64,000 bases of DNA from Halobacteriales archaeon YIM A00013 (GTDB lineage Archaea > Halobacteriota > Halobacteria > Halobacteriales > Haloarculaceae). The notes beneath the pieces were generated by a model, which was not told the origin of the DNA, ran no database searches, and saw only the letters and a program-made list of their open reading frames with translations. The first letter of the stretch is position 1. Every line of letters begins with the position of its first letter. A program made the translations under genes and the position numbers. Shown here in pieces: positions 4,183-12,315 of the stretch. The stretch is from NCBI GenBank assembly GCA_025041195.1, contig JAKCFM010000002.1, forward strand, positions 186,001 through 250,000, in the 5' to 3' direction.

Positions 4183-5235
4183 ATGCTCAGAATCGAAGGA
4201 CAGGAAACAACTGAACTTATTGCAACTGAATTAAGTACAGAACAACTTAACGAAGACGATTTGCGAGAATGGGTGATCGACAATCCAGCCGAGATTCTCG
4301 GCGAAGAACTCCTTATTATTGGTCGAGAGGTTGGAGTGGCAAATCTCGGTGATGGGATAGATATCTTGGCGATTGATACTGAAGGGACTGTCGTCGTTGT
4401 GGAACTCAAACGGGGGGCGCTCCGACGCTCCGTGGATTTTCAGGCGCTGAAATACGTTTCATACGTTTCTCGCTGGTCGTACGACGATATCAAACAACAG
4501 TTTGAAATGTTTCTACAGTCCGAATGGGGAGCGACGCTCCACGGTGACGATGCATCGTTTGCCGAAACCCTTGAGGCGTTTTGTGATGATGATTATGAGC
4601 TCAATGGAACACAGCGTATCTTCTTGGTTGGCAGCAAAGTCAGGGAACGAATCGGGAGTGTCGTTCTCTGGTTGCGAGAGCAGGGGATCGATACGAGCAT
4701 TGTCCAGTTTTCAATCTACAAGGACCGGTCCGATGACCTCTACCTCGATTCGAAGACGCTTGTACCAACCTCTGATCTAGAGAAGTTCGAAACGGGGGAT
4801 TCTCCGTCCGACAATCCGTGGAAGGTGAACGGAAAACGGTGGCATCTCGAAGAGCGGACGAACGAGAACACGCCTGCACTCGTCCAGCAGCTTGTCGATT
4901 CGATGACTGAAATCCCCGTCCTGGACGGTCCAAGTTGGACACAGAAAATCTACATTGCGTTTCGAGTGGATGGGACAAACCGGGTATTATTGCGGACCCG
5001 GGCAAACTCCGTCCAGGTTGATGTTCGTGATTTCCCTGTCGAAGACGAAGATGATCTGCTGACAACTGCCACAGCCCTCATCGATGATCGAGAGCGCGTA
5101 CGATTGGATACGGAGTTTCAGGGGAATCGAACCCGACTGCAGATTAAATGCATACCTGCTGATGAATTCGACCACGAAGAATGGGTAGAATTTATAAAAC
5201 ATCTTCTCCGCGAAGATCGAGAGGGCGCGAACTGA
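4183..5235 (+). CDS. NucS/DUF91-type nuclease-domain protein
   Basis: 350 residues. The N-terminal 110 residues match the catalytic core of the endonuclease NucS (DUF91) and RecB-like nuclease fold: Asp60 in GDGIDILAID, the Glu74-x-Lys76 pair in VVVVELKRG, and Gln87 in FQALKYVSYVS. These are the metal- and phosphate-binding positions of the family. In canonical archaeal NucS the nuclease domain is C-terminal after a beta-sandwich DNA-binding domain. Here the order is reversed and about 230 residues of unrecognised sequence follow, so this is probably not the mismatch-repair NucS. The C-terminal part may bind DNA or a partner. The gene is monocistronic and convergent with the large fusion gene. 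The nuclease call is from motifs, and the biological role (repair or defence) is open. Confidence 0.8.
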   Translation: MLRIEGQETTELIATELSTEQLNEDDLREWVIDNPAEILGEELLIIGREVGVANLGDGIDILAIDTEGTVVVVELKRGALRRSVDFQALKYVSYVSRWSYDDIKQQFEMFLQSEWGATLHGDDASFAETLEAFCDDDYELNGTQRIFLVGSKVRERIGSVVLWLREQGIDTSIVQFSIYKDRSDDLYLDSKTLVPTSDLEKFETGDSPSDNPWKVNGKRWHLEERTNENTPALVQQLVDSMTEIPVLDGPSWTQKIYIAFRVDGTNRVLLRTRANSVQVDVRDFPVEDEDDLLTTATALIDDRERVRLDTEFQGNRTRLQIKCIPADEFDHEEWVEFIKHLLREDREGAN

Positions 5236-5326: not shown

Positions 5327-8300
5327 CTAGTAGTCTCGAACGTCGACGACGAACCAGCTAAAGGCACGCAACATCATTTTCGCCTGTGACGCGTCAAGGA
5401 CGTCGTCCACTGGTTCCCAGGCATCATCGACTATCGCACGAGCGTAGTCGTAGCACCAATCGACAGCGCCACAGCCCTCTACGAGATCGATGATCCGATG
5501 GATATCCATTGCTTCGTCTTCGGCCTGCAGTTCCTGATACAACGTGGTTCGCTCTGGTTCATCGAGCACCTGCAAGGCTCGGACGATGGGTGCGGTGACT
5601 TTCCCTTCCATGAGGTCTTCGCCGTGTTCTTTCAGGTCGTGTTCGTACCCACGAAGATTGATCGCGTCATCGACAATCTGGAAGGCGAGCCCTAACGCAA
5701 AGAAGTATTCACCGATGATTGTTTCCGCTTCAGGACTTCCATTCCCGAGAACAACGCCCAGTCTGGCAGCAAACATCGCTGGTACGCCGCTCTTGAGCCG
5801 GTGCGTCGCACAGAGATTTTCCCACAGCGGTTCAAACTCTCCCGTTTCGAGACAGTCCGGCACCACATGTTCCCAGCCGCGAATATCCATTCCCTGACCT
5901 GCGTGGGTTGCCCGCATCGAAAAGTTGTGCAAGCGATAAAACCGGAGCCACTGTTCATCGGTTGGATCGACGGCTTCAAGCATGGGTTCGCACACAAAAT
6001 ATCCGGCTGTTCCGGCATTGATCGCGGTTGCATCACCGTAGATTGTGTGGGCTGCCGGTCCACCACGTCGCACGTCCGAGTTGTCCTCTACGTCATCGAC
6101 GATCAAACTCCCCGTATGAATGAGTTCGAACAATGCAAGCGCTGGCCGTAGCTCCTGTGGATCACCGCCGACGGCATCAGCACAGAGAAGGAGGCACATC
6201 GAGCGCCAGCCCTTCCCACCCCGGTCGATGATCGTTCGAAGCGGCTGTACGATTGCGTCGACGAATGCCTCCGTGTCAACCCCTCGCATTAACGTATCGT
6301 ACTCATCACGGGCAATGAGAGCCTGTATCCTGTCATCGGACATATCTTTGAGCGGCAGTTGCTCTCGCACAGATCGCTGGACTTCGCGGCTCACGTCGTC
6401 AAGGAACGTTCGGTAGTGTGATCGGTCACCGCCGTTTCCGTACTGTGCACACATCCCGACTCCTCCGATTTTGTTCCCATTGTGGTCACCCCTGACCACA
6501 ATCGGTCCGTTCCAGAACCCGGGCTGTGCAATGATCGTTCGGTATTCCTGATCGTCGTCAATCGCCCGGATATCGATATCGATATCTAACGCCGGTACCG
6601 TCAGCGTCCACTCGACCCCGTACTCGGTGTACGTCCGCATACTCGACCACCGACGCTGTTGTTCGAGCGTTCCCGTGTGTCGGCTGCGATCCCCATCTGG
6701 ACCGACGTACATGATGTCGGTATCGTGGAGCCGCTCGTCGTTCGTGAGATCGATTACTATCGCAGCATATAGCTCTGCCTCATTGTCGAGATGGATCCTG
6801 AACTGCGTTCTGGAGTGGAGGTTGTCGAGGGCCGCTCCGGCATCCGAATCCCCACCGAACTGATGATTGTACCATCCAGACCCAGCAACTGACTCGCGTT
6901 CACCGTCGAAAACGACGTGCCCCGTAACGTCCAGACGCGTATACGAGTAGGAAAACAGTGACGACCCGGCTGTAACGCCTCGCATGATGCCGTCTTCGAG
7001 CGGTAACACTGGTTCTTGTTGTGGATCGAATCGCAACGAGAATCCGAATCCATCGGTGCTGTTTTCGCTATCGAGTTCAATGTAATAGCTCTCATCCTCC
7101 TTGTCGATAGAGAGATCGCCTATCGAGTAGTCAAACTCCTCGCGTGGAATCTCTGGTTCGCTGGTGGCCATCGCATCTGGGTCTGGGAACACATCCGTTT
7201 CGTAGACCTCTCTGAGAGCACGGCTGAAGTAATCTGTTGTGGGGGCGCTAGACAGTTCTGGTACGAGATGTCCCGGGGTCCGAGGATCGCCGATCGAGCG
7301 TTCGTATTTCTCGCCGTTGGATCCTATATGGGCTCCAAGATTGGCATGGGCCAGTTTTTCATCATCAACCTCACGCTCGGAAAGCAACGAGAATACTGAA
7401 AGTCTGTCGCCAGCCTCGGTTTCGAGAGATGCCTGAAAGTTCCACCGCTCAATGCTTGCAGTCTCGTGTGGACAGTCGTGCGTTTCCACAGCAAGTGGTC
7501 TGTTCTTTGCTGGCCAGTCGGTGTTGAACGCCGGGAATGCTTGCGAGGTGGCGTTGATCGTTTCGAGAAATGTATCCCGTCGCTCGATCGTTTTACCGGC
7601 ATTAGTCTCTGGCTCATTGAGAAGCGCGACCCCCGCCAGCTTGCGTTTGTGCCAGTCGGCGATCGGTAGCGAATCGATAAACCGTATTGCCAGGTGGTCC
7701 CGCTGTCGATTGCTCTGCTGAGATTCGAAATGGTCTTCAAAGGCGTTGATAGCGGTTTCGACGCCGTTTTCCGCAGCAAGTGCCGTTCCAACTGCTTGTG
7801 CGCGTTGCTGAAATGACGAATCCATGATCCGTTCAAGATGATGGTCAAATCCATCCGCTGGATTTCGAACGTGAATTCCGGCACCCTCTCGTTCGATCCA
7901 CTCTGCCCACTGTGGCATGTCGGCCCAGGTGACGGAGGGGACAATGATCGCGGGAGTTCCGGCACGCATACACGCAGCCGTCGTGCCGGCTCCACCGTGG
8001 TGGATGACCGCGCGACAGTGTTCGAAGAGTGCCTCGTGTGGCACTGCATCAATCTGGTAGGCCCACGACCGTACTGACGTTGGAACGTTCGATCCAATTG
8101 CGATACACCGGTGCCCAGATCGTTGAATCGATCTGAGAAGATCCTCAGCCCACGGTGCTCCATCGTCATCGAAAATAGCGGCACTCCCGAAATTGAGACA
8201 GATCGGCGCTGGACCATCGGTCAGAAAATCACGTGTGGCTCTATCGAGCGATTGATCCGCCGTCACCGTGTCTTGAATCTGCCAGAAGCCTGTCGTTTCA

Positions 8301-9811
8301 TCGGGGAGCCCTGGAACCCCGCGATCACTTACCCGAGGACTGTATCCGCGCAACGTGAGCGTAGTATTAACTCGTGAGAATGTCTGCATCGCATCTTCAT
8401 CGTCGTAGCGATACGAGATTCCACACTCCTCATAGGCGTCATTCAGCGCCCGATCGATCCCAAAGCCGGTTGCAGCGTAGGCTATTTTTGTTAGATTTCC
8501 GAAAAAGTTGTGGATGCCAGGATGCTCGCCAACGTCGTCACCATCAACATACAGCGGTGCAAATCTGATATCCACGACGGGAATGTCGAAATGGTTGTAG
8601 AGGAGTCCCCAGCAGAATACGGCCGTTCCCAGTATCGCGCAATCGGCCCAGTCCGAACTCTCAGCGATCGTCTCGACGATATCGGTCCCATAGTGGTCAT
8701 AGAACGTGGACAGTTCGTCAAAGAACGCGTCCATCTGTTCTTTTTCCGTGGCAGCCGGATCGATCGGAACGTCGATGCGTGCCGCAGGATGCGGGCTGAC
8801 GAACGGAACGCCGTACTGTTCAACCAGTTCTCGGTGGGGTTCATTGGAACAGATCCGAACGTCATAGCCACGCTGTTGGAATCCGCGAGCGAGCGCGATA
8901 CACGGCTGTACGTCACCGCGCGTCCCGAATGAAACGAACAGAATCCGGTCGGTTGGTGTCTCTACGTCCTCGATCGTGGATCGAGATTGCGGGAGCACAT
9001 ACTGGTTGGGGCATAGATTCTGTTTCGACGTTGGGTCCGATACGATAGCTTCCGTCGCTGGAGATTCTACCGGTGCGGGTTCATCAAGGCGATACCCAAA
9101 CCGGCGAATTTCAGGCTCCAACTGTTCGATGGGGGCCCGCTTTGCGTCCGTGCTGTGCAGCCAGCCAGCCCATCCATCTCTGCCGATCGATCGTAGCGCC
9201 TGTGCGTCGATCTCGACGGGAGAGAGCCCCGCTGCCTCGAACACTGGAGCGAGAACTTCGGTTGGGTGTCGTCGGAGTTTATGAAACGATACGACATAGC
9301 AGTTTTCGAGCTCATCAACGTCCTGCAGTAGCCGTTCGTGAGAATACAGCCAGTGCCGAACGATCGAATCGAGTGGCTGTGTTCTGTCTTTGGTCCGCTC
9401 TTTCGTCGCAATTCCATCGAGCACTGGATGGCGGTGGATGTACAACTGAGTGCTATTCGGAAACGCACTAGCCAGCAGTCGGGCTCGGGTGATGTTTGCA
9501 GGAGAGTACTGGACCCCCACCGCAGTGTCAGAGTGCCACAGACCGTCGATACTCGATCGGAACTGTGCAAGGACGGTATCCATACAGTTCTCATCTGTTG
9601 GATCGATTTGGGCGTCTGGATGGAATGCGAATGCGCCTGCTCCACCGTAATACTCGATCGGCTCGAAGAAGGAGTGAAACTGATCATCTGCCTCGGGCAA
9701 GGAGTCGTCAGCACGTCCGGTCTCGATCGCTGGGTGTTGGGCTAACAATTGCGGAACAACAGCTGCTCCACTACCGTGTAGTCCCCCAACGAATATTACC
9801 TGATTATTCAT
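5327..9811 (-). CDS. Four-domain fusion: sulfotransferase-like / GT1 glycosyltransferase / CrtC-AttH-like / polyprenyl synthase-like
   Basis: 1494 residues in one frame. Residues 1-250 resemble PAPS sulfotransferases: a phosphosulfate loop-like VGGLHGSGAAVVPQLL at 8-23 and a 3'-phosphate motif YIHRHP at 124-129. Residues 288-700 are a GT1/sterol-glucosyltransferase-like enzyme starting ILFVSFGTRGDVQP with the nucleotide-sugar motif HHGGAGTT at 604-611. Residues about 780-1145 look like the CrtC/AttH lipocalin-like hydratase fold, with SGSGWYNHQFGG at 977-988. Residues about 1155-1494 are a trans-polyprenyl synthase-like domain with GGKGWR at 1198-1203, a first aspartate motif DDVED at 1239-1243 and a degenerate second motif DDAIN at 1381-1385. 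Together they suggest making, hydrating, glycosylating and possibly sulfating an isoprenoid. The loop lacks the usual Arg/Thr residues, so sulfotransfer is uncertain. AT-rich spacers flank the gene, consistent with transfer. The product is unknown. Confidence 0.85.
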   Translation of the reverse strand: MNNQVIFVGGLHGSGAAVVPQLLAQHPAIETGRADDSLPEADDQFHSFFEPIEYYGGAGAFAFHPDAQIDPTDENCMDTVLAQFRSSIDGLWHSDTAVGVQYSPANITRARLLASAFPNSTQLYIHRHPVLDGIATKERTKDRTQPLDSIVRHWLYSHERLLQDVDELENCYVVSFHKLRRHPTEVLAPVFEAAGLSPVEIDAQALRSIGRDGWAGWLHSTDAKRAPIEQLEPEIRRFGYRLDEPAPVESPATEAIVSDPTSKQNLCPNQYVLPQSRSTIEDVETPTDRILFVSFGTRGDVQPCIALARGFQQRGYDVRICSNEPHRELVEQYGVPFVSPHPAARIDVPIDPAATEKEQMDAFFDELSTFYDHYGTDIVETIAESSDWADCAILGTAVFCWGLLYNHFDIPVVDIRFAPLYVDGDDVGEHPGIHNFFGNLTKIAYAATGFGIDRALNDAYEECGISYRYDDEDAMQTFSRVNTTLTLRGYSPRVSDRGVPGLPDETTGFWQIQDTVTADQSLDRATRDFLTDGPAPICLNFGSAAIFDDDGAPWAEDLLRSIQRSGHRCIAIGSNVPTSVRSWAYQIDAVPHEALFEHCRAVIHHGGAGTTAACMRAGTPAIIVPSVTWADMPQWAEWIEREGAGIHVRNPADGFDHHLERIMDSSFQQRAQAVGTALAAENGVETAINAFEDHFESQQSNRQRDHLAIRFIDSLPIADWHKRKLAGVALLNEPETNAGKTIERRDTFLETINATSQAFPAFNTDWPAKNRPLAVETHDCPHETASIERWNFQASLETEAGDRLSVFSLLSEREVDDEKLAHANLGAHIGSNGEKYERSIGDPRTPGHLVPELSSAPTTDYFSRALREVYETDVFPDPDAMATSEPEIPREEFDYSIGDLSIDKEDESYYIELDSENSTDGFGFSLRFDPQQEPVLPLEDGIMRGVTAGSSLFSYSYTRLDVTGHVVFDGERESVAGSGWYNHQFGGDSDAGAALDNLHSRTQFRIHLDNEAELYAAIVIDLTNDERLHDTDIMYVGPDGDRSRHTGTLEQQRRWSSMRTYTEYGVEWTLTVPALDIDIDIRAIDDDQEYRTIIAQPGFWNGPIVVRGDHNGNKIGGVGMCAQYGNGGDRSHYRTFLDDVSREVQRSVREQLPLKDMSDDRIQALIARDEYDTLMRGVDTEAFVDAIVQPLRTIIDRGGKGWRSMCLLLCADAVGGDPQELRPALALFELIHTGSLIVDDVEDNSDVRRGGPAAHTIYGDATAINAGTAGYFVCEPMLEAVDPTDEQWLRFYRLHNFSMRATHAGQGMDIRGWEHVVPDCLETGEFEPLWENLCATHRLKSGVPAMFAARLGVVLGNGSPEAETIIGEYFFALGLAFQIVDDAINLRGYEHDLKEHGEDLMEGKVTAPIVRALQVLDEPERTTLYQELQAEDEAMDIHRIIDLVEGCGAVDWCYDYARAIVDDAWEPVDDVLDASQAKMMLRAFSWFVVDVRDY

Positions 9812-10185: not shown

Positions 10186-11124
10186 CTAGAATGGCCACCA
10201 GTCATCGTCGCTTTCCTGGTTTCCAGGGGGAAAGTTCGCAACAATCCGTGGGACACAGCCCTTATCAGGTTTGTAATAGATGCAGTGGCCCTTGACGCTC
10301 TCTGCGACGTTGTGGTCGTAGTAGTTCGACGGCGTTTCTCCAAACAACGGTGCCCCGTACGCACCAACCGCCTCCGGACCGAACTGGCCGAGCTGGAAGA
10401 TTTCGTTGAGAATGTTGTCGTGTTTGCTGTAGTAGTTGTTGACCTCGTCGGCGCCGCTGGCTATTGTCGCGCCAAACTCACCGTCAGTCGTGACTGCACT
10501 CTGGTTAATCGCGCCGCCAATCATGCCGAACGATCGAATGGGCGAGTGACCGTTTTCATTCACTAGTTCATCGAGACAGCCAAGGCCTGTCCGTGCGCCG
10601 AGTGAGTGACCAATCATTCGAATGGTGGTGTTCGGATTTTGCGTTCGGTAATCTTGCAACCACGACGAAAACGCTCGTCCGTCTTCTTCGGCGGCGTCTT
10701 GCACACCCCACCAGTTCGGGTTGTTCGACGGGTATTTGAATGTGATCGTTGGATGGTCGTAGCCGTTCTGTCGGAGTGCCGTCTGGAGCGTATACCCCTG
10801 ATCCCCTGCTCCACCCGTAAAGAGTTCGAGCCACCCATGCACGTAGATGAGGACTTCATCGGCACCCTCCGGGAACGTCCCGTGCTCAACGAATTCTGAT
10901 CCGCCGAAAATGCCCTCCTGTTTCTCGATAACGGGGTAGTCATCCGGAGCGGACATGGCAGTGAGACACTGGGCCTCGGCAATTGTCGCAGTTGCACTCC
11001 CGCTCAAGAGTGGCACTCCGGAAATAATGGCTGCCCCACCAGCCATCCGCCGGAGGATCGTTCGGCGATTAACTGTTCGCCGCGTCGAGTCGTCTGATTT
11101 CGTCGTTGGGCTATCGCGAAGCAC
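10186..11124 (-). CDS. Tat-exported alpha/beta hydrolase (lipase/esterase-like)
   Basis: 312 residues with a GTG start. The N-terminus holds a twin-arginine signal (NRRTILRRMAGG, residues 19-30) and a hydrophobic stretch ending SGSATA, so export as a folded protein is expected. The hydrolase domain has an oxyanion HG motif in LIYVHGWLELF (about 92-102) and the nucleophile elbow GHSLG at 172-176 (Ser174). A likely acid (Asp236 in YSKHDNIL) and a base His (SVKGHCIYY, His270) follow. It lies upstream of the fusion gene on the same strand, separated by the 374-base AT-rich spacer, so co-transcription is unlikely. Substrate is not readable from the sequence; lipid esters are plausible. Confidence 0.85.
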   Translation of the reverse strand: MLRDSPTTKSDDSTRRTVNRRTILRRMAGGAAIISGVPLLSGSATATIAEAQCLTAMSAPDDYPVIEKQEGIFGGSEFVEHGTFPEGADEVLIYVHGWLELFTGGAGDQGYTLQTALRQNGYDHPTITFKYPSNNPNWWGVQDAAEEDGRAFSSWLQDYRTQNPNTTIRMIGHSLGARTGLGCLDELVNENGHSPIRSFGMIGGAINQSAVTTDGEFGATIASGADEVNNYYSKHDNILNEIFQLGQFGPEAVGAYGAPLFGETPSNYYDHNVAESVKGHCIYYKPDKGCVPRIVANFPPGNQESDDDWWPF

Positions 11125-11379: not shown

Positions 11380-12315
11380 TCAGTTCGCAGTGGCGTCCTC
11401 GATTGTGACGAGTTCCTCAACCGGGGGGAGTTCGGCATCTTCCTCAGTTAGAATTTCGATACGTCGGGTGATTTTTTCCTGTGCGTATTCTACAAGCGGG
11501 GCCGTATCGATCGGCATATTTCCACCCTGGACAGCGCCCGCAACGTGACCCATCAACGCTTGTAGCGTTTGCTGGACGACTTCCGACGCGACCTCGTCGT
11601 TTTGAATCAGTTTGCGAACTTTTTGCATCCCGAAGCCGACGTGACGGCCTTCGTCGCTACGGACGTACGTGATGCCTTCAATGAGTCCTTCGAGATGGAG
11701 GGTTTCGTCACCATCGAACAGTTCTGGTCCATCCGGGCTGAACGCAGCTTGGAGCCCGTAGTAGCCGGTCTGGGCAAGCACGCTTTCAATCGTGAGATGA
11801 TAATGGCAGAACGCCTTAGCGCGGGTTTCTGCACTGTCCTCGGTCAACAATCGCTTCATCGCAGCTTCGTTTTTCTCGAACAGGGCAACGTACTCCTCGT
11901 TTACGTATCGCTGATCAGTTGGGAGGGTCAACTCGAAGTCGCGCGCACGTGCAACTGGATCAATGACTACACGCCAGTACCGATCAAAGAACTGCGTGTG
12001 TTTGGCCTCTTCGTAGAGCTGTGATGTGATAAACATCTGATCGTCGATGTCATCGAGAACGACTGCAAGGGGTGCGAGATCTTCGGTCACAGCCTCCTCT
12101 CCAGCGCCAAACAGCGCAATAGTGCCCCGTAGGCCGTCAAACTCCGCTTCAGTCATTTCACTCGCAATCAATTTCTGTCGGTCGGATTCGAGTTGCTCCT
12201 GTGAGACGTCTTCATACGGATCCCAGTGGCGGTAGACGGCATTTCGGAAGTAGCCACCAGCAAACGAGTCGGGAGTAATGCGCATGTCGCGGCTCGTGTC
12301 TTCTACCTGTGTCAT
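11380..12315 (-). CDS. R2-like ferritin-fold diiron protein (RNR beta subunit-like / R2lox-like)
   Basis: 311 residues with the six-ligand pattern of class I ribonucleotide reductase R2 and R2-like ligand-binding oxidases: a Glu in GAGEEAVTED (73-78), Glu103-x-x-His106 (YEEAKH), Glu177 (HLTIESV) and Glu222-x-x-His225 (DEGRHVGFGM). Such proteins are often annotated as ribonucleoside-diphosphate reductase beta chains in haloarchaea. No large subunit (NrdA) is in the window, and the length and motif context fit R2lox, which binds a long-chain ligand and carries out oxidations. It is divergent from a small HTH_10 regulator that may control it. The fold is certain. RNR versus oxidase function is undecided, with R2lox favoured. 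Confidence 0.8.
   Translation of the reverse strand: MTQVEDTSRDMRITPDSFAGGYFRNAVYRHWDPYEDVSQEQLESDRQKLIASEMTEAEFDGLRGTIALFGAGEEAVTEDLAPLAVVLDDIDDQMFITSQLYEEAKHTQFFDRYWRVVIDPVARARDFELTLPTDQRYVNEEYVALFEKNEAAMKRLLTEDSAETRAKAFCHYHLTIESVLAQTGYYGLQAAFSPDGPELFDGDETLHLEGLIEGITYVRSDEGRHVGFGMQKVRKLIQNDEVASEVVQQTLQALMGHVAGAVQGGNMPIDTAPLVEYAQEKITRRIEILTEEDAELPPVEELVTIEDATAN

Follow-up and report, generated by a model that had tools for sequence, protein, structure and literature searches.

One polypeptide of 1494 residues, encoded on the minus strand of a haloarchaeal replicon, joins a Sulfotransfer_3-like domain, a glycosyltransferase (GT) of the sterol/macrolide type, a CrtC/AttH-like double lipocalin and a trans-polyprenyl synthetase (PPS). 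The window, i.e., the whole stretch of 64,000 nucleotides that was analysed, comprises bases 186001-250000 of the 745,770-base second replicon in a genome of 3.73 Mb. The four-domain layout is real and old, because a cyanobacterial plasmid encodes a full-length relative in which the domains are arranged alike. The single domains are all of known families, and the four-domain chain is, as far as paper searches go, apparently undescribed. Our tentative view, to which, judging from the sequence, we give slightly less than an even chance, is that this single chain assembles a polar prenyl glycoside (a terpenoid or polyprenyl glycolipid). In prokaryotes, the enzymes of an isoprenoid pathway are normally separate proteins; one conserved chain that combines chain synthesis with a CrtC-type domain and glycosylation, and that occurs in two domains of life, would point to a class of polar isoprenoids that has yet to be described, for which there is now one gene to express and delete.

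A four-domain chain and its relatives

Inspection of the open reading frames of the window revealed no internal stops across the 1494 codons (Table 1). The initial annotation had described one uninterrupted frame at this place, which stands, with its strand corrected to minus. It had also assigned the four parts to sulfotransferase-like, glycosyltransferase, CrtC/AttH-like and prenyl-synthase-like families, and all four assignments lie above the curated Pfam cut-offs, which we used as the domain criterion. AlphaFold, run on the N-terminal half with two input sequences, gave a pLDDT of 34, too low for the model to be of use.

The same uninterrupted frame of 1494 aa, 88% identical over its full length and without stops between the domains, is found on the minor chromosome of Actinarchaeum halophilum YIM 93972, and the neighboring genes are in the same order there (full synteny). 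A colinear homologue of 1509 aa (34% identity, 100% of the length covered), in which the Pfam domains follow in the same order, is located on plasmids of Tolypothrix sp. PCC 7601 and 7712. An assembly artefact is ruled out by the frame in the complete, independent A. halophilum genome together with the colinear Tolypothrix homologue. The claim that the architecture had not been described is upheld by a search of the open-access literature, in which neither a description of the four-domain architecture nor one of the CrtC-PPS pair was found; gromomycin biosynthesis, as far as its account was consulted, involves no such fusion.

Among 391 genomes of the class, full-length matches are confined to the genus of the window, and two of its seven genomes carry the fusion gene. 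A Lipocalin_9 search of 146 genomes of the family revealed a GT-CrtC-PPS protein (53% identity) in a haloarchaeon of another genus, G734. Both ends of this fusion lie in 20-N scaffold gaps, and its N-terminal and last parts are missing from the assembly; no sulfotransferase part turned up elsewhere in G734, a negative of little weight, because the assembly is 72% complete and the gene is cut by the two gaps. With CrtC as the query, two-domain CrtC-PPS proteins were detected in four methanogen-type genomes among 393 genomes of the phylum, all four falling outside the class Halobacteria. A search of plasmids added a CrtC-PPS fusion of 747 aa in Streptomyces canus and a protein of 649 aa in N. 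stercoris, in which the PPS follows ~300 residues that score below the CrtC cut-off. Judged by these domain matches, the CrtC-PPS pair is a recurrent fusion (methanogens, Streptomyces). Cyanobacterial relatives were sought in the plasmid collection, and their spread among cyanobacteria may exceed it; one scan of viral contigs gave no relatives.

Several observations stand beside this distribution. The CrtC-PPS genes of two genomes (G632 and G542) have neighbors that resemble chemotaxis-type signaling genes by their N-terminal sequence (by eye). Other archaea of the phylum have a separate family of CrtC plus Lipocalin_9 proteins of ~550-565 aa without PPS (L069, L070, and L071). Members of the fusion clade that consist of PPS only are encoded on Streptomyces plasmids (L072, Table 1, and L073), and no split CrtC was recognized beside the PPS-only gene of Streptomyces NBC_01431. 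In G277 and G391, which are listed as two "species" genomes of the genus, prenyl-synthase matches fall at identical coordinates of contig 1; with its contamination of 9%, G391 may be a mixture or a duplicate.

Table 1. Features of the fusion gene, its neighbors and related loci (window coordinates unless a locus is named)
Feature	Position	Strand	Residues	Remarks
Whole fusion gene	5327..9811	-		1494 aa; ATG 9811; stop 5327-5329
Domain 1, Sulfotransfer_3 family	9032..9811	-	~1-260	PAPS loop degenerate
Sulfotransfer_3 match			6-197	8e-15; 56.1 bits vs cut-off 27
5'-PAPS loop position, GGLHGSGA	9764..9787	-	9-16	Alignment with standalone sulfotransferases
Domain 2, GT28-N/EryCIII-like_C glycosyltransferase, sterol/macrolide-GT type	7721..8947	-	~289-697	
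Glyco_transf_28 N match			290-339	2e-9; 38.0 bits, above cut-off
EryCIII-like_C match			574-657	4e-13; 50.0 bits, above cut-off
Domain 3, CrtC + Lipocalin_9 (AttH/CrtC-like double lipocalin)	6422..7441	-	~791-1130	
CrtC (PF07143) match			890-986	5e-10; 40.7 bits, above cut-off
CrtC catalytic Asp motif position, WYNH	6863..6874	-	980-983	
Lipocalin_9 (PF17186) match			1003-1112	2e-11; 44.8 bits, above cut-off
Domain 4, trans-polyprenyl synthetase	5330..6301	-	~1171-1494	
polyprenyl_synt (PF00348) match			1186-1437	1e-46; 159.6 bits vs cut-off 27
First Asp-rich motif, DDVED	6083..6097	-	1239-1243	Intact; Gly five residues before
Second Asp-rich motif, DDAIN	5657..5671	-	1381-1385	Third Asp replaced by Asn
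Alpha/beta hydrolase, Tat-like N-terminus	10186..11124	-		312 aa; DUF726/DUF900; upstream of fusion gene
R2-like ferritin-fold protein	11380-12315	-		311 aa; sub-threshold match
NucS-C-like protein	4183-5235	+		Converges on 3' end of fusion gene
CrtC-PPS two-domain protein	L065 6072-8348	-		Methanogen-type archaeal genome
CrtC-PPS two-domain protein	L066 6586-8874	-		Methanogen-type archaeal genome
CrtC-PPS two-domain protein	L067 8317-10485	+		Methanogen-type archaeal genome
CrtC-PPS two-domain protein	L068 8031-10280	+		Methanogen-type archaeal genome
PPS-only member of fusion clade	L072 4977-6002			Streptomyces plasmid

Origin of the fusion and selection on it

In a maximum-likelihood tree of PPS domains, those of all these proteins, N. 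stercoris included, and the two PPS-only Streptomyces sequences form one clade (99/96), in which Tolypothrix is the sister of the haloarchaeal fusions (100/97); the two groupings recurred at 97/95 and 99/99 when the tree was re-run with G734 added. The fusion clade spans methanogen-type archaea, Streptomyces, cyanobacteria, and haloarchaea. The other three prenyl synthases of the window's genome are placed outside this clade, and therefore, the fused PPS is not derived from the genome's own genes; for this domain, the tree rules out a local fusion. The simplest reading would be a transfer between bacteria and haloarchaea in either direction: inter-domain transfer may have brought the gene into the haloarchaea or out of them, and cyanobacterial plasmids carry its nearest known relative.

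Acquisition had originally been deduced from AT-rich spacers on the upstream side. It is borne out by phylogeny and distribution but not by base composition: the fusion gene has a GC content of 55.4%, compared to 54.7% for the related minor chromosome of A. halophilum (PMC10067837), its GC3 is 58%, only slightly below the window mean of 65% (sd 5), and the low-GC flanks are intergenic or part of the neighboring NucS-like gene. There is no strong compositional sign that the gene arrived recently.

Between the two haloarchaeal copies, dN/dS is 0.22 overall and 0.14-0.29 in every segment, with 0.29 for the sulfotransferase, 0.24 for the GT, 0.23 for the CrtC and 0.145 for the PPS domain and 0.14-0.22 for the inter-domain stretches. 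Hence, the whole chain is maintained by purifying selection. These values bear on the view that the protein is a partly degenerate multi-enzyme relic in which one or two domains (PPS and GT) still function and the sulfotransferase-like and lipocalin domains have a structural or binding role. In favor of this view, the alignments show motif changes in each of the four domains, and the sulfotransferase part is the fastest-evolving (82% identity) and the PPS the slowest of the four domains (92%). However, purifying selection is seen in all segments and the frame is intact in both species; moreover, the changes in the sulfotransferase loop and the PPS are shared with Tolypothrix and are therefore old and maintained. 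We consider a relic unlikely.

Proposed reactions and the motifs that bear on them

An isoprenoid-glycoside assembly protein, as proposed in the initial annotation, remains the best reading, with the sulfate and hydratase steps being doubtful. The order of the domains, from which an assembly role had been argued, is uninformative on the order of the reactions, and some of the steps that were deduced from the names of the domains, sulfation most of all, probably differ from expectation. In our model, the C-terminal PPS would make an allylic (prenyl) diphosphate, and the lipocalin domain would bind the hydrophobic intermediate and then either transform it or hand it over. The GT would glycosylate a hydroxyl of the prenyl product. 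The N-terminal domain may add the last polar group or may be a non-sulfating binding domain in these haloarchaea.

The first DDxxD motif of the PPS is intact in every member of the fusion PPS clade. The residue at position -5 of this motif is a small one, Gly, which would allow chains longer than C20. The second motif departs from DDxxD, with DDAIN in the window and A. halophilum and DDVIN in Tolypothrix; its third Asp is lost in all fusions except that of S. canus (Asn, Ser or other). The three other synthases of the genome have DDLLD, DDILD, and DDVLD at this place. NCBIfam equivalog scores for the fused PPS are far under the cut-off.

The GT signatures GTRGDVQP and HHGGAGTT are both present in the aligned window protein. 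The DQ donor motif is absent, with D631-M632 in the window and DM in haloarchaea, but is kept in Tolypothrix and in a standalone cyanobacterial GT.

In the CrtC of Rubrivivax, H239, W241, Y266, and D268 are essential (PMC4717167). Mapped by motif position to the Rubrivivax numbering, the counterpart of Asp268 is Asn982 both in the window protein and in the relative with 88% identity, and the positions of His239, Trp241, and Tyr266 appear, by motif distance, to hold Phe953, Tyr955, and Trp980. The motif reads WYN in the window, WYD in Tolypothrix and G734, WFD in most methanogen fusions and WFE in S. canus. Of the former label "hydratase-like," the family match holds, but catalysis is doubtful with Asn982 at the position of the essential Asp.

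An alternative use of the same domains is a terpene-cyclase machine, in which an oligoprenyl diphosphate from the PPS would be cyclized by the CrtC-like domain or an altered PPS site and the cyclic alcohol then glycosylated by the GT to yield a cyclic terpenoid glycoside. The chemistry of CrtC is the protonation of an isolated alkene and has been likened to that of squalene-hopene cyclase (PMC4717167), the loss of the third Asp from the second PPS motif hints at an altered use of that site, and GTs of the sterol/macrolide type act on cyclic aglycones. The expected catalytic acid of CrtC is, however, the very residue replaced by Asn982, and we regard cyclization as rather unlikely, albeit worth bearing in mind.

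Sulfation had been proposed as part of the pathway, and an enzyme that makes sulfated isoprenoid glycosides, with a PAPS-dependent sulfation as its final reaction, would agree with the Sulfotransfer_3 match and with the conserved Arg127 of the RHP motif, which is shared with standalone sulfotransferases. Nevertheless, the PAPS loop lacks the RSGT(T/S) signature: standalone relatives have GLHRSGTS or GLYRSGTS, whereas Arg and Thr of the loop are replaced in the window (GLHGSGAA) and in Tolypothrix (GLHNSGAS). A sequence search gave no solved structures related to this part.

The supply of activated sulfate also argues against this step. Neither of the two full-fusion carriers, the window's genome (G000) and G183, has a true match to the APS kinase family PF01583; the sole match in the window's genome is an FtsY-type GTPase (by eye), and that in A. 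halophilum is equally weak, whereas two members of the genus without the fusion, G338 and G361, carry clear APS kinases (1e-43). ATP sulfurylase PF01747 had no match in the window's genome, the heterodimeric CysDN type being outside this search. An APS kinase gene does lie ~11 kb from the fusion on the Tolypothrix plasmid, but transposases separate the two. The major polar lipids described for A. halophilum include PG, PGP-Me, and five unidentified glycolipids, and a sulfated glycolipid is present in its relative Halocatena pleomorpha (PMC10067837). Given the degenerate PAPS loop, the failure to find an APS kinase and the lipid description of A. halophilum, sulfation by the fusion protein is unlikely in these haloarchaea, and a synthase of sulfated glycosides is, in our estimation, improbable.

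The five glycolipids fit a polar prenyl glycoside, as a correlation only, and the fusion may explain unidentified glycolipids of spore-forming haloarchaea.

Gene neighborhood, export and comparison with known systems

The fusion gene of the window is flanked by genes for a hydrolase, an R2-like ferritin-fold protein, an AMP ligase, and a regulator. Co-operonic terpene genes were not found in the 64-kb window, nor is a terpene or transporter gene adjacent to the fusion. The Tat-exported esterase that had been noted upstream on the same strand is confirmed as an alpha/beta hydrolase, with the twin-arginine signal (RRTILRRMAGG) judged by eye; it is separated from the fusion gene by 375 bp and is its neighbor in A. 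halophilum as well, a functional link being putative. The R2-like protein has its sub-threshold match to the small chain of ribonucleotide reductase, is syntenic in A. halophilum and could be an oxidase. On the other side, the NucS-C-like protein matches the PADLOC candidate defence family PDC-S11 (4e-38) and has a homologue (79%) in an unrelated context in the genus member G391.

Relatives of the fusion adjoin ABC exporters, and therefore, by analogy, its product is probably exported. In Tolypothrix, the gene sits between genes for an HlyD-like ABC-exporter fusion protein and a DevC-type FtsX permease and ATPase, with transposase-like remnants (by eye) between the fusion and the exporter genes. 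The copies of S. canus and Streptomyces NBC_01431 adjoin an ABC permease and ATPase pair, and AttH-like genes of rhizobia also adjoin ABC/FtsX permeases.

The position between Dev-type exporter genes recalls the export of heterocyst glycolipids by DevBCA, but the haloarchaeal fusion genes differ in that an exporter is not adjacent. Heterocyst glycolipids themselves come from a different pathway, which is of the polyketide type. It is imaginable, although we hold it to be very improbable, that an isoprenoid-glycolipid assembly protein is common to filamentous cyanobacteria and a hypha- and spore-forming lineage of haloarchaea and provides an exported envelope lipid of differentiated cells, in a role like that of heterocyst glycolipids.

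The single domains resemble well-known enzymes. Standalone Sulfotransfer_3 enzymes (e.g., of Rhodobacterales) share ~25% identity, the GGLH..SG start and the RHP motif with the N-terminal domain, which differs by the replaced Arg and Thr of the loop and by a host in which a PAPS supply was not detected. The GT domain resembles sterol/macrolide glycosyltransferases (yeast-type sterol GT and GtfB) in its GT28-N and EryCIII-like C domains and signatures, the best solved relatives being GtfB (1iir) and the sterol 3-beta-glucosyltransferases 5xvm/5gl5, and differs by DM in place of DQ and by being embedded in a fusion. With CrtC hydratases and AttH-like double lipocalins, the third domain has in common a two-part lipocalin above the cut-off and a motif of the type G-x-x-W-x-x-H-x-x-G; unlike the hydratases, it appears by motif position not to match the essential Rubrivivax residues and is fused to a PPS. 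The PPS, in turn, resembles trans-isoprenyl diphosphate synthases (IdsA/GGPP/octaprenyl) in its PF00348 match, DDxxD first motif, and GQ motif, and GGPP synthases such as 5jfq come nearest to it among solved structures, but it is fused behind three domains, falls into a separate clade, and has a DDxxN second motif. A comparison for the C-terminal half is offered by the CrtC-PPS two-domain fusions of methanogen-type archaea and S. canus, which, although they are without sulfotransferase and GT (~720-760 aa), have the same pair of domains in the same order and belong to the same PPS clade.
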